A stretch of DNA of 64,000 nucleotides, taken from Kaistia geumhonensis (lineage in GTDB: Bacteria > Pseudomonadota > Alphaproteobacteria > Rhizobiales > Kaistiaceae). Positions 46,127 to 50,105 of this stretch are shown here, piece by piece. Location: positions 682,001-746,000 of the forward strand of contig NZ_JAUSWJ010000001.1 in NCBI RefSeq assembly GCF_030815145.1. Reading direction: 5' to 3'. Position numbers and translations under genes: made by a program. How positions within the stretch are numbered: the stretch's first letter is position 1; every line of letters begins with the position of its first letter. A model generated the notes under the pieces. The model searched no databases and had not been told where the DNA came from. It saw only the letters and a program-made list of their open reading frames with translations.

Positions 46127-46292
46127 GTCGGGCGGCGGCCCCGCTCTCTTCGCAGCATGGGAGGGTCGACAGGCCGGATCGCGGCCGGCCGCGACCCACC
46201 CGCAGTATCAGGTCAGAATAAACGGACAGACGCTGAAAATGTGGCCGAACCGAGTGGTTCGATCGTGAGCGCAGCGTGTGCGGCGCCGGCTG

Positions 46293-47393
46293 TCAAGGCC
46301 GCACGAGAATTCCGCCGGTCATGGGATGCGGACAGCCGGTCGTCTCGGGGAAACTGATGGGCAGGCCGGCCACATGCCGGGCGGCCAGATAGGCGAAGGC
46401 CTGCGCCTCGATGAAGTCGACCGACCAGCCATGCGCGTCGGCCGTCGTGACGGGTACGCCGCCCATCGTTTCGAGATTTCGGAGGATCGCCGGATTGTGC
46501 GCTCCGCCGCCGCAGACGACGATCGCATCGGCGCCGCCGGCGAGGTCGATGGCGCGGACGATGGCCTCCGCGGTGAAGGCGGCGAGCGTCGCCGCCGCGT
46601 CTTCCGTCGACAGCCGGGCCACGGGAGCGCGCGAGAAGGCATCGCGGTCGAGCGACTTCGGCGGCGGCAGGTCGAACCAGGGATGAGCGATGAGTTCGGC
46701 CAGCGTCTGCGCCTGCACCGTGCCGGCAAGCGAGAGCCGGCCGTCGCGATCCATCGCCGCGCCCGTGCGCTCGCGCACGAGATCGTCGATCAGCGCGTTG
46801 CCCGGCCCGGTATCGAAGGCGACCAGCGAGTCGTCGGCGCCCACGCGGGTGACATTGGCGACGCCGCCGATATTGACCACGGCGACATCGCCTTCGAGCC
46901 CTGCCGCGCGGACCAACGCGCGGTGGAAGATCGGCACCAGCGGTGCGCCCTGCCCGCCCGCCGCGACGTCGGCGGCGCGAAAATCATAGACGACGGGAAT
47001 GCCGAGCCGCCGCGCGAGCGCCGCGCCGTCGCCGATCTGCACCGTCAGCCGCCGATCCGGCGCATGGAAGACCGTCTGTCCGTGAAAGCCGACGAGCGTC
47101 ACGCGGCCGGCGTCGACATCGGCGCGCGCCAGCAGGCTTTCGACCGTCTCGGCATGGGCGTCGGTGACGATCCGCTCCGCCTCGGCGAGGACGCCGGGCC
47201 GGGCGTCGCGATCAGCGAGGCCCGCGGCCTCGGCGAGCGCTGCGCGGAGAACGGCCCTCTCGGCCACGCTATACGGGCGAAACGCCGTCGGGCCGAAGGC
47301 CTCGACGTCTTCCGCGTCGGTCGCGATCAGCGCGGCGTCGATGCCGTCCATCGACGTGCCGCTCATCAGGCCGAGGGCGACGATCCTGCGCAT
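46293..47393 (-). CDS. anmK: Anhydro-N-acetylmuramic acid kinase
   Basis: Converts anhydro-MurNAc from recycled peptidoglycan to MurNAc 6-phosphate. 366 aa. N-terminal LGLMSGTSMDGIDAALIATD, QTVFHAPDRRLTVQIGDGAALA, GGVANVTRVG, FDTGPGNALIDD and GGGAHNPAILRNL are diagnostic. It is divergent from the DAHP synthase leader region. A weak 6-bp hairpin CGAACC/GGTTCG at 46246-46261 lies 31 nt after its stop and could be its terminator. Confidence 0.95.
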   Translation of the reverse strand: MRRIVALGLMSGTSMDGIDAALIATDAEDVEAFGPTAFRPYSVAERAVLRAALAEAAGLADRDARPGVLAEAERIVTDAHAETVESLLARADVDAGRVTLVGFHGQTVFHAPDRRLTVQIGDGAALARRLGIPVVYDFRAADVAAGGQGAPLVPIFHRALVRAAGLEGDVAVVNIGGVANVTRVGADDSLVAFDTGPGNALIDDLVRERTGAAMDRDGRLSLAGTVQAQTLAELIAHPWFDLPPPKSLDRDAFSRAPVARLSTEDAAATLAAFTAEAIVRAIDLAGGADAIVVCGGGAHNPAILRNLETMGGVPVTTADAHGWSVDFIEAQAFAYLAARHVAGLPISFPETTGCPHPMTGGILVRP

Positions 47394-47462
47394 GATTCGG
47401 GTCTTTGTCCTTTGTCGTCGTGCCCTCTTTCGCGTCGCCCGGACGGCGCGTCAATCTTTGAG

Positions 47463-47491
47463 GTGACAAAGCCTAGCGGCTCGGCTATAGG
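47463..47491 (+). promoter_or_regulatory. Promoter of the aromatic leader peptide and DAHP synthase
   Basis: -35 GTGACA (47463-47468), 17-bp spacer, -10 TATAGG (47486-47491). The transcription start would fall about seven bases later, at or next to the leader peptide ATG (47499). Confidence 0.6.
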
Positions 47492-47498
47492 CTCGCTC

Positions 47499-47585
47499 AT
47501 GAACATCTCGGCCCGCGCCTTCTTCTTCGGCTGGTACTTTAGCTATTCGTCCCCGGCGGCGAAGGCAGGAGCGCGCGCAAACTAA
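47499..47585 (+). CDS. Aromatic-rich leader peptide of the DAHP synthase attenuator
   Basis: 28 codons. Residues 8-16 read FFFGWYFSY: four Phe, one Trp and two Tyr in nine codons, in the fashion of attenuator leader peptides, immediately before a terminator and the first enzyme of aromatic synthesis. No ribosome-binding site is visible and the predicted transcript starts at about the ATG, so it may be translated as a leaderless mRNA. Ribosome stalling when aromatic aminoacyl-tRNAs are scarce would favour read-through. It is part of the aroG mRNA, not an independent enzyme. Confidence 0.82.
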   Translation: MNISARAFFFGWYFSYSSPAAKAGARAN

Positions 47586-47608
47586 CCGAGCGAAGCATCC
47601 GACCCGAA

Positions 47609-47640
47609 GCCGCCAAACCGAGTTGGCGGCTTTTTTGTTT
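47609..47640 (+). terminator. Attenuator terminator before DAHP synthase
   Basis: Perfect 8-bp stem GCCGCCAA (47609-47616)/TTGGCGGC (47623-47630), loop ACCGAG, then TTTTTTGTTT. A GGCGGC at 47555-47560, just after the aromatic codons, can pair with 47609-47614 as a competing antiterminator. Confidence 0.82.
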
Positions 47641-47674
47641 GCCGCCGGCCGGGAAACTCCAAGGAGCCCGAACC

Positions 47675-48751
47675 GTGCCCGACACCACCGACGACCTGCG
47701 CATCCGCGAGATCAAGGAACTCTCGCGTCCCGCCGAGGTCATGGCCGAATTCCCCCGCACCGACGCCGCGAGCCGCACCGTTTCCGGTGCCCGACGCGCG
47801 CTGCACGCTATCCTGCATGGCAGCGACGACCGCCTCGCCGTCGTGATCGGCCCGTGCTCGATCCACGACCCCGCCGCAGCGATCGACTATGCGAAGCGCC
47901 TCCTTCCCGTCCGCGAGCGGCTGAAGGGCGAGCTCGAGATCATCATGCGCGTCTATTTCGAGAAGCCGCGCACCACGGTCGGCTGGAAGGGCCTCATCAA
48001 CGACCCCGATCTCGACGGCAGCTTCCACATCGACAAGGGCCTGCGCCTCGCCCGCGGCCTGCTGCTCGAAATCAACGATCTCGGCCTGCCGGCGGGCAGC
48101 GAGTTCCTCGACATGACGACCCCGCAGTATTTCGCCGATCTCGTCGGCTGGGGCGCCATCGGCGCGCGCACGACCGAGAGCCAGGTGCATCGCGAACTCG
48201 CTTCGGGCCTCTCCTGCCCGGTCGGCTTCAAGAACGGCACCGACGGCAATGTGCGCATCGCCGTCGACGCGGTGCTCTCCGCCTCGCAGCCGCATCATTT
48301 CCTGGCCGTGACGAAGGATGGCCGCTCGGCCATCGCGGCGACGACCGGCAATGACGACTGCCACATCATCCTGCGCGGCGGCAAGCAGCCGAACTACGAC
48401 GCCGCCAGCGTCGAGGCCGCGGCGGCCGAGCTCGTCAAGGCGAAGCTGGCGCCGGCGTTGATGATCGACGCAAGCCACGCCAACAGCCTCAAGAAGCCGG
48501 AGAACCAGCCGCGGGTGGTCGACGAGATCGCCGCACAGGTCGCGGCGGGCGACAAGCGCATCATGGGCGTGATGATCGAGAGCAACCTCGTCGCCGGCCG
48601 CCAGGACCTCGTTCCCGGCAAGCCGCTCGTCTATGGCCAGAGCATCACCGACGGCTGCATCGACTGGGCGACGTCGGAGGGTGTGCTGGAACGCCTCGCC
48701 GAAGCCGTGCGGCAGCGCCGCGCGGCGGAGCCGATCGCGCTCGCCGGCTGA
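47675..48751 (+). CDS. aroG: 3-deoxy-7-phosphoheptulonate synthase (DAHP synthase), class I
   Basis: First enzyme of the shikimate pathway, joining PEP and erythrose 4-phosphate. 358 aa. Family landmarks are RLAVVIGPCSIHDPAAAIDYA, MRVYFEKPRTTVGWKGLIND, SCPVGFKNGTDG, LRGGKQPNYD and DASHANSLKKPENQ. The start is GTG 47675 with AAGGAG eight bases upstream. Expression is predicted to be attenuated by the leader described at 47499-47640. Isozyme type (Phe, Tyr or Trp sensitive) cannot be told from the sequence; all three residues occur in the leader. tyrS follows, 100 nt later. Confidence 0.95.
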   Translation: MPDTTDDLRIREIKELSRPAEVMAEFPRTDAASRTVSGARRALHAILHGSDDRLAVVIGPCSIHDPAAAIDYAKRLLPVRERLKGELEIIMRVYFEKPRTTVGWKGLINDPDLDGSFHIDKGLRLARGLLLEINDLGLPAGSEFLDMTTPQYFADLVGWGAIGARTTESQVHRELASGLSCPVGFKNGTDGNVRIAVDAVLSASQPHHFLAVTKDGRSAIAATTGNDDCHIILRGGKQPNYDAASVEAAAAELVKAKLAPALMIDASHANSLKKPENQPRVVDEIAAQVAAGDKRIMGVMIESNLVAGRQDLVPGKPLVYGQSITDGCIDWATSEGVLERLAEAVRQRRAAEPIALAG

Positions 48752-48771
48752 AATCCCCGCCAATCCTCATG

Positions 48772-48804
48772 GCCGCCGCCGCTGATGATCTTTTCGGCGG
48801 CGGC
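48772..48804. other. Long hairpin between DAHP synthase gene and tyrS
   Basis: Perfect 10-bp stem GCCGCCGCCG (48772-48781)/CGGCGGCGGC (48795-48804) with a 13-base loop ending in TTTT. It may be a weak terminator or an mRNA stabiliser. A T-run lies in the loop rather than after the stem, so it is not a standard terminator. Confidence 0.45.
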
Positions 48805-48851
48805 TGCTAAAGCGAGCCGCACCTGAGTCTTCTCACGTTCCGGGATCCTCG

Positions 48852-50105
48852 ATGACCGCGTTCAAGTCCGATTTCCTCAACGTCCTCTCGACGCGCGGGC
48901 TCATTCACCAGATTTCCGATCCGGAAGGCCTCGACGCCGCGGCGCTCGCCGGCCCGATCACCGCCTATGTCGGCTACGACGCCACCGCGACGAGCCTCCA
49001 TATCGGCAACCTGATCTCGGCGACGATGCTGTACTGGCTGCAGGAGACCGGCCACCGGCCCATCGCGCTGATGGGTGGCGGCACATCCATGGTTGGCGAT
49101 CCTTCCTTCCGCGACGACCAGCGCAAGCTGCTCACCGTCGAGGAGATCGAGCGCAACATCGCGGGCATCAAGCAGATCTTCGCGAAGATCCTGCGCTTCG
49201 GCGATGCGCCGGGCGATGCGATCATGGTCAACAACGCCGACTGGCTGCTGAAGCTCAACTATGTCGAGTTCCTGCGCGATGTCGGCCGGCACTTCTCCGT
49301 CAACCGGATGCTCTCCTTCGATTCGGTGAAGCTGAGGCTCGATCGCGAGCAGTCGCTGTCCTTCCTCGAATTCAACTACATGATCATGCAGGGCTACGAC
49401 TTCGTCGAGCTCAACCGCCGTTATGGCTGCGTGCTGCAGATGGGCGGCTCCGACCAGTGGGGCAACATCATCAACGGCGTCGACCTCGCGCACCGGATGG
49501 ACCGGCCGCAGCTCTATGCGTTGACGACGCCGCTGCTCACCACTTCGTCGGGTGCCAAGATGGGCAAGACCGCCAAGGGCGCCGTCTGGCTCAACGCCGA
49601 CCTCTTCAGCGCCTATGACTTCTGGCAGTATTTCCGCAACACCGAGGATGCGGATGTCGGCCGCTTCCTGAAGATCTTCACGCGCCTGCCGCTCGACGAG
49701 ATCGCGAAGCTGGAAGCGCTGGGCGGCTCCGAGATCAACGAGGCCAAGAAGATCCTCGCCACCGAGGCCACTGCCGTCGTCCATGGCCGCGACGCCGCCG
49801 AGGCGGCCGCCGAGACGGCCCGCCAGACTTTCGAGCAGGGCGCGCTGGCCGAGTCGCTGCCTACGATCGAGGTGCCGGCCGGCGAGTTCGAGGCCGGGAT
49901 CGGAGCGCTCGCGCTCTTCGTCCGCGCCGGCCTCGTCGCCTCGAATGGCGAGGCACGCCGCCAGATCAAGGGCGGCGGCCTGCGCGTCAACGACGTTGCG
50001 CTCGACGACGAGAAGGCGATGGTCGGTCCCGCCGCACTGACGCCGGAGGGCGTCGTCAAGCTGTCGCTCGGCCGCAAGAAGCACATCCTCGTCCGCCCGA
50101 GCTGA
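48852..50105 (+). CDS. tyrS: Tyrosyl-tRNA synthetase
   Basis: 417 aa class I synthetase. The HIGH-type motif is SLHIGNL (about residue 47), the tyrosine-site region [13 protein letters not shown], and the KMSKS-type motif is [11 protein letters not shown]-terminal S4 RNA-binding domain starts near [21 protein letters not shown]. The ATG at 48852 gives a family-typical start. It follows aroG in the same direction. Confidence 0.97.

Follow-up and report, generated by a model that had tools for sequence, protein, structure and literature searches.

The shikimate pathway begins with DAHP synthase, the first enzyme of aromatic amino-acid synthesis, and ribosome-mediated attenuation is a classical mechanism. 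In E. coli, the DAHP-synthase genes are described as controlled by the proteins TyrR and TrpR (PMC5343134), an attenuation-based control of aroF is mentioned as an earlier hypothesis (PMC8632094), and pheA and pheST are reported to be attenuated (PMC11802643). A tested analogue is aroR of C. glutamicum, a Phe-Tyr-Phe leader that is reported to respond to Phe but not to Tyr limitation (PMC11802643, PMC4046766). The uORFC-13-1 motif upstream of aroF is described with 24 representatives in Acholeplasma and environmental sequences (PMC8632094), and attenuators upstream of the Vibrio aroAI-alpha_Y-tyrA were predicted on the Merino website, as listed in PMC1173090. The trpL attenuator of the alphaproteobacterium S. 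meliloti encodes a 14-residue peptide with three Trp, controls trpE(G), and its RNA is reported to start at the ATG of the leader ORF (PMC7298713).

Here, we describe a predicted attenuator upstream of an aroG-type DAHP-synthase gene in Kaistia geumhonensis, located within a stretch of 64,000 nucleotides that was analysed as a whole and is referred to as the window. As in aroR-aroF, an aromatic leader peptide precedes a DAHP synthase, here with predicted ribosome-mediated attenuation; compared by description only, the C. glutamicum system is actinobacterial, whereas the leaders presented here are proteobacterial and most contain Trp. The Acholeplasma motif likewise combines a predicted uORF, Phe codon(s), a terminator and DAHP synthase, but it has a ribosome-binding site, and its description in PMC8632094 includes no Trp/Tyr cluster. 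The Vibrio case shares the predicted attenuation of a class I-alpha DAHP-synthase operon, there in gammaproteobacteria, but concerns a tyrosine-type isozyme in an operon with tyrA (PMC1173090). In contrast to the S. meliloti trpL, the Kaistia leader has 28 codons with mixed aromatic residues and would control aroG.

Organisation of the aroG leader region

The features of the locus are as follows.

46293..47393, reverse strand: anmK, divergent upstream neighbour
47463..47491, forward strand: promoter-like GTGACA-N17-TATAGG (GTGACA 47463-47468, TATAGG 47486-47491)
47499..47585, forward strand: leader ORF of 28 codons, predicted to be leaderless, MNISARAFFFGWYFSYSSPAAKAGARAN (ATG 47499-47501, TAA 47583-47585)
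47514..47534, forward strand: region 1, CGCGCCTTCTTCTTCGGCTGG, predicted from single-sequence folds to pair with region 2
47520..47546, forward strand: control codons FFFGWYFSY (4 Phe, 1 Trp and 2 Tyr among 9)
47553..47577, forward strand: region 2, CCGGCGGCGAAGGCAGGAGCGCGCG, of which the core GGCGGC (47555-47560) is predicted to pair with region 3 as antiterminator
47606..47616, forward strand: region 3, 5' arm of the terminator, GAAGCCGCCAA, common to terminator and antiterminator
47623..47640, forward strand: region 4, 3' arm of the terminator and T-rich tail
47675..48751, forward strand: aroG-type (class I-alpha) DAHP synthase, TIGR00034, GTG start with AAGGAG upstream
48852..50105, forward strand: tyrS, tyrosyl-tRNA synthetase, next gene after aroG

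The aroG product scores 527.6 bits against TIGR00034 (AroF/G/H-type DAHP synthase; cut-off 173.2). The leader ATG lies 7 nt past the -10-like box, which is separated from the GTGACA by a 17-nt spacer; the hairpin starts 20 nt beyond the leader stop, and 34 nt lie between the T-rich tail and the aroG GTG. Since anmK is on the opposite strand and transcribed away from the leader, the terminator is not read from anmK and sits between the promoter-like site and the gene it precedes. It consists of GAAGCCGCCAA (47606-47616), the loop ACCGAG and TTGGCGGCTTT (47623-47633), followed by the T-rich tail to 47640, and forms 11 pairs including A-U and G-U, 8 of which belong to GCCGCCAA/TTGGCGGC.

The promoter-like sequence, the 28-codon ORF at 47499 and the GGCGGC named in the original prediction are present letter for letter. 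Taken alone, the window's terminator or promoter is not significant. A scan over 3 kb found one terminator-like site compared to a shuffle mean of 1.3, the fold of the whole strand is not unusually stable (z-score −0.81), and a sigma-70 promoter scan of 46500-49500 reported no site, TATAGG failing its last-T rule. The leader frame is also open further upstream, antisense to anmK, to a GTG at 46278, so that an open frame alone says nothing in favour of the leader. An aromatic cluster of this kind, by comparison, is not expected by chance: among the 471 ATG ORFs of 12-60 codons in the window, only the leader has 7 aromatic residues in 10 (the second-best ORF has 5), and this value was reached by none of 10083 ORFs in 20 mononucleotide shuffles of the window. 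The decisive evidence that the element is real is, in our view, its conservation.

The order anmK-aroG-tyrS (46293-50105) was found in all 13 loci of the window's genus among those collected and was absent from the fetched flanks of loci outside this genus; an insertion of aroG between the other two genes is possible. It might be that tyrS shares the attenuated aroG transcript. An inverted repeat, GCCGCCGCCG/CGGCGGCGGC, which has no T-run, lies between the two genes (48772-48804) and may or may not separate their transcripts.

Conservation and distribution of the element

We compared 95 distinct loci, consisting of 17 from a family search (window included) and the best 80 of 579 relatives, minus 2 duplicates. 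Left out beforehand were L001, which is the same place as L002, and L021 and L025, which duplicate the contigs of L007 and L012. A leader was called when an ORF with at least 4 aromatic residues in 10 was followed by the terminator motif GGCGG..TTT. This combination was present in 86 of the 95 loci, the window among them, which span alpha-, beta- and gammaproteobacteria. It was absent from nine (L076, L079, L083, L090, L091, L092, L096, L097 and L098), all among the more distant of the 95, and a covariance model (see below) did not match these either.

Within the best 80 of 579 relatives, the nearest genomes all fall in a single genus, with Kaistia hirudinis and K. terrae among its members. 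Judged by record title, the hosts of the leader comprise Kaistia, Devosia, Bradyrhizobium, Methylosinus, Geminicoccus, Caulobacteraceae, Rhizobium and others, as well as Bordetella, Advenella, Oxalicibacterium, Massilia and Stenotrophomonas. Examples of leaders are MITVATSYFWYFSYDSSLAAGGSRSI (Bradyrhizobium), MNLRAAYSYWYFTTGSRWQPKGRV (Devosia), MNAAATRFYWYYFPKPLAEEGLRSP (Stenotrophomonas) and MNFAHPAFFFYFYAFLKPLAEEGSRSN (Bordetella ansorpii). Outside the aromatic run, the peptide diverges widely between clades, and its tail overlaps the RNA pairing region. One locus, L019, is labelled Mycobacterium sp. KBS0706; its AroG and leader group with those of alphaproteobacteria, and the record is probably misnamed.

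Conservation of the aromatic codons and of the terminator in relatives had been set beforehand as a check on the original prediction. Both are conserved, so that the prediction is not refuted; its leader peptide, its attenuator and its DAHP-synthase target survive the comparison, as they do the model matches that follow.

From the 86 leader loci we retained 56 non-redundant elements (pairwise score below 0.88), aligned them and built from them a covariance model (R1), which was searched against 249 genomes of Pseudomonadota. TIGR00034 was run on the same genomes, and 141 of the 249 were over its cut-off. The model matched at E ≤0.001 in 73 genomes. All 34 matches above 48 bits lie directly upstream of a TIGR00034 DAHP-synthase gene on the same strand (33 placed by coordinates and the one in G192 separately), two of the 34 being in the training set (the window and a repeat of L095). 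The 14 matches between 35 and 48 bits comprise two before a DAHP synthase, 11 before pheS or pheA and one partial match; of the 39 matches below 35 bits, 31 are partial, and three of the full-length ones, L165, L166 and L167, have no aromatic leader by the leader rule. In the window genome there is one strong match (92.3 bits), followed by one of 22.9 bits.

The 11 weaker matches (35.9-47.6 bits; L152-L162) precede pheS in six cases and pheA in five, and their leaders include MKLFPFFFAFFFTFP and a 14-residue peptide that we take to be E. coli PheM. Thus, although its training set consists of DAHP-synthase leaders, the model also picks up leaders of genes that are attenuated in E. coli. The pheL-pheA and pheM-pheST elements share with the Kaistia element a Phe-rich leader and a terminator, but they have 14-15 codons, are dominated by Phe and reach only the lower scores given above. 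Common origin and convergence of these leaders with those of DAHP synthase are both possible.

Under strict filters, 36 of the 141 genomes encoding the DAHP synthase were found to carry the element upstream of its gene; the element is widespread but not universal. All 36 matches have an aromatic ORF and the terminator motif, 33 have a Trp in the core, 29 have a -10-like box and none has a Shine-Dalgarno (SD) 4-mer. Two of these (L144 and L203) repeat the window and L095 of the training set; the ORF taken was the shortest with the best aromatic score, and the start is probably wrong in L137, L141 and L148. Upstream of 20 hand-chosen TIGR00034 genes of the phylum sample lacking an adjacent match, six of which accompany, as second copies, a gene in the same genome that has the element, the model did not match, and four of these 20 stretches contain an ORF with at least 5 aromatic residues in 10. 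In G257, an AroFGH copy (C1:1581740-1582765) contains one in-frame TAA.

Amino acids probably read and the DAHP-synthase complement

According to the original prediction, Phe, Trp and Tyr are all sensed by one leader, and such a leader is uncommon. The second part does not hold within this leader family, in which all three residues occur in 60 of 86 leaders and are thus the usual form. A core Trp beside Phe/Tyr is present in 61 of 86 and missing in 25, including leaders of the Rhizobium group and of many Burkholderiales. The first part stands in so far as the codons are conserved (60/86); it is weakened by the single Trp codon of the window, by the 25 leaders without core Trp and by the tested analogue aroR, which, as reported in PMC11802643, answers to Phe and not to Tyr limitation. 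Phe and Tyr are most likely sensed, and Trp is likely to be sensed in the lineages that keep the codon.

Codon usage was compared in the 41 of the 56 loci with GC3 of at least 0.80, using the first 350 codons of the following genes. Phe is encoded by 86 TTT and 38 TTC codons in the leaders compared to 14 and 256 in the following genes, and the TAT:TAC ratio for Tyr is 59:34 compared to 81:133, while the other leader codons mostly end in G or C (603/750). The synonymous bias, tested for these two residues, is thus stronger for Phe than for Tyr; as the loci share ancestry, p-values for it are nominal. Such a bias fits selection on control codons, but a constraint at the RNA level could also produce it. 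Codon choice is held to be important for the sensitivity of attenuators (PMC1183508).

It is possible, though doubtful, that the same attenuator senses essentially one amino acid (Phe, perhaps Tyr), the only Trp codon and part of the Tyr codons being carried along through RNA pairing or chance. The behaviour of the Phe-Tyr-Phe leader aroR, the one Trp codon in the window, the leaders lacking core Trp and the stronger bias for Phe all fit this reading, as does the recurrence of the nucleotides TGGTAYTTTAGC in many alphaproteobacterial leaders, through which an RNA constraint may preserve the codons. Against it, the Trp codon within the aromatic run is kept in 36 of the 56 non-redundant loci, and 33 of the 36 leaders found by the model retain Trp even though the flanking residues and the register vary.

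Another aspect of the Trp codon is its relation to the number of DAHP synthases. The window genome encodes one I-alpha DAHP synthase (the leader-bearing aroG), one enzyme of class II and, outside TIGR00034, a second PF00793 gene, which is presumably KdsA-like. Upstream of the class II gene, no ORF has 3 aromatic residues in 8, whereas one scattered ORF upstream of the KdsA-like gene passes this rule. As no aromatic leader was seen upstream of the class II gene, the attenuated aroG product looks like the adjustable enzyme of the two. We considered that leaders without Trp might accompany an extra, Trp-dedicated DAHP synthase and rejected this, as the opposite was seen in 42 hand-chosen loci of the 95 (L090 and L092 among these have no leader): core Trp is present in 20 of 24 with a class II enzyme compared to 3 of 16 without.

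Extended to 74 genomes, consisting of earlier loci and 34 genomes of the phylum sample, core Trp occurs in 52 of 59 genomes with two or more DAHP synthases compared to 3 of 15 with one. The exceptions with two or more enzymes and no core Trp are L070, L073, L082 and L089 of the Rhizobium group and L046, L053 and L088; those with one enzyme found and core Trp are L023, L085 and L226, of which L023 and L085 are MAGs. A quickly built tree of the AroG proteins from these 74 genomes has good support on 22 of its 71 inner branches. Independent pairs differing in Trp number 3 on supported branches (6 on all) and, on average, 1.6 differ in gene number in the same way, 0.0 in the other way and 1.4 not at all; for pairs differing in gene number (5, or 7 on all branches) these values are 1.4, 0.0 and 3.6, and neither count can reach significance. 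The association is therefore a suggestive lead that is not significant on the tree. Only tentatively, and regarding it as somewhat improbable, do we propose the full reading, according to which one conserved leaderless attenuator reads all three aromatic aminoacyl-tRNA pools with a vocabulary tuned to the set of DAHP synthases, the Trp codon being present with a second enzyme, either of class II or a further I-alpha, and missing where the attenuated enzyme has no other beside it.

A further ORF of the window genome, upstream of a trpE-like gene outside the window (L195:901-1008; G000:C1:619503-619610), ends in RWQGDARWHAGWRWR with 4 Trp and is followed by a GC-rich hairpin before the gene. It is possibly a Trp leader.

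Predicted transcription start, RNA structure and proposed mechanism

The original prediction placed the start of transcription at the ATG of the peptide, and the position of the promoter and the rarity of SD sequences across relatives fit this. In 48 of the 56 non-redundant loci, a hexamer starting with TA lies upstream of the leader ATG with its end at a distance of 4-9 nt, the peak being at 6-7 nt. At least four of six positions match TATAAT in 31 of 56 (300 mononucleotide shuffles: mean 3.5, maximum 9), and C is found at -1 in 44 of 56. An SD-like 4-mer at -18 to -4 is present before the leader in 7 of 56 loci compared to 51 of 56 before aroG, and in all seven leader cases it is the AGGA inside a TAGGAT -10-like box. 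Leaderless transcription of the leader is thus likely. In Bradyrhizobium, a start-site study reports 192 starts exactly at start codons and, for leaderless mRNAs, an extended -10 TGnTA motif (PMC4842269); a term search of the text of PMC4842269 returned no mention of aroG or attenuation.

That transcription instead begins further upstream and the leader ORF is translated from an SD sequence or by re-initiation appears unlikely to us. The seven loci with an SD-like 4-mer, the eight without a TA-starting hexamer at the expected place and the failure of the automatic scan to report the window promoter would be in line with it. However, the hexamer peak, the C at -1 and the contrast to aroG in SD frequency argue for a start at the ATG, as do the 36 model matches (box in 29, SD 4-mer in none) and the assignment of all seven AGGA to -10-like boxes.

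The perfect 8-bp terminator with T-run of the original prediction was confirmed as 8 of 11 pairs, and its compensatory changes in relatives are clear from the alignment of the 56 elements. The helix is paired in 91.0% of cells, and pair 133-157, for example, is G-C in 44 and A-U in 12 of the 56 sequences. It exceeds every slid version in paired cells and in both-side changes, the latter being reached by none of 500 shuffles; its 9 pair types are no more than shuffles give.

The competition of GGCGGC for the first terminator arm, also part of the original prediction, fared more modestly. The antiterminator helix joins region 2, which is CTGGCGG-like and lies inside the ORF, with the 5' arm of the terminator. 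Its complementarity is retained (80.1% of cells paired compared to 16.3-53.5% when slid), and in the window the 2:3 core has only 6 pairs. Compensatory changes appear modest and weaker than those of the terminator: the covariation score was reached by 4 of 500 shuffles, but pair-type counts are not above shuffles (243/500), and a version slid by +3 gives more both-side changes (13 vs 10) and pair types (10 vs 8). Pair 63-138 changes from G-C to A-U only in L070 of the Rhizobium group. At the outermost pair, 68-133, 8 sequences have C-G and 3 have U-A, and 44 of 56 are unpaired. The antiterminator thus rests on retained complementarity more than on covariation. Four clade sets, put together by hand from 47 of the 56 elements, were folded with RNAalifold. 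A two-part form (GGCGG:CCGCC and GGG:CCC) appeared in the sets of the window's family, of betaproteobacteria and of mixed origin; this form was absent from the Devosia set, and all 56 together gave three antiterminator pairs only.

The 1:2 hairpin is the weakest part of the model. Single-sequence folds predict a strong hairpin in the window leader, with UUC codons paired to the GAAGGCAGGAG part of region 2, and an 8-pair leader hairpin appeared in two of the four clade sets, but RNAalifold recovered no common 1:2 helix. In all 56 elements, the last aromatic codon starts 10-20 nt (median 14) ahead of region 2, and region 2 itself starts at a median of 25 nt before the stop codon. Given the ribosome-footprint sizes used for the stall geometry, a ribosome stalled at the last Tyr codon of the window (47544-47546) would reach the edge of region 2. 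Region 2 (47553-47577 in the window) contains in many leaders an SD-like GGAGG-N-AGGG stretch inside the ORF, which may slow ribosomes or pair with the CCC before region 3.

The element in all likelihood controls the class I-alpha DAHP synthase by ribosome-mediated attenuation of transcription, and more enzyme would very probably be made when Phe, Tyr or Trp run short. Sequence and comparison show the ORF, the codon cluster, the spacing and the terminator with its compensatory changes and, more weakly, the antiterminator; we infer from them the translation, the stalling, the transcription start, the 1:2 hairpin and the amino acids that count in the cell. RNA polymerase would begin at the A of the leader ATG or at a neighbouring nucleotide, and a ribosome would load on the leaderless RNA. 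With Phe-, Tyr- and Trp-tRNAs charged, it would cross the aromatic codons and region 2 inside the ORF; with region 2 covered, region 3 would pair with region 4, and transcription would end at about 47636-47640. Scarcity of an aromatic aminoacyl-tRNA would instead make the ribosome stall on FFFGWYFSY and open the 1:2 hairpin. At most aromatic codons it would stop short of region 2, leaving this free, so that GGCGGC could pair with GCCGCC, no terminator would form and aroG would be transcribed.

A quite improbable addition is that the released short RNA or the peptide also acts in trans, as is reported for rnTrpL and peTrpL of Sinorhizobium. A leaderless small mRNA ending at a terminator has the anatomy of rnTrpL as described in PMC7298713. 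The divergence of the peptide between clades outside the aromatic run and the overlap of its tail with the pairing region argue against a trans role, but the divergence counts weakly, because peTrpL itself is reported to be hardly conserved (PMC7298713). Finally, it is extremely improbable that a chance ORF precedes an ordinary terminator, or that a metabolite-binding riboswitch carries an incidental ORF: the terminator alone is at chance level, the fold is of ordinary stability and the leader frame is open upstream as well, but the same enzyme is preceded in three classes by an aromatic ORF whose spacing is fixed, and Rfam gave no match at the gathering threshold in the window.

As an attenuator, the element would work by a classical mechanism; what appears to be new, as far as the literature was searched, is the leaderless form with three amino acids. 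The sources consulted, as far as their text was covered, describe no leader peptide with aromatic codons upstream of the AroG-type enzyme in these Proteobacteria, although an earlier prediction is possible. Our findings suggest that in many alpha-, beta- and gammaproteobacteria a translated RNA switch gates DAHP synthase, as well as or instead of control by proteins. Three end products read in one ribosome queue would act as a natural OR-gate, open to testing of each codon in turn. As the leader is probably leaderless, it would also be well suited to studying how translation of 5'-AUG RNAs stays in step with RNA polymerase, and to asking if trans roles like that of peTrpL are general.
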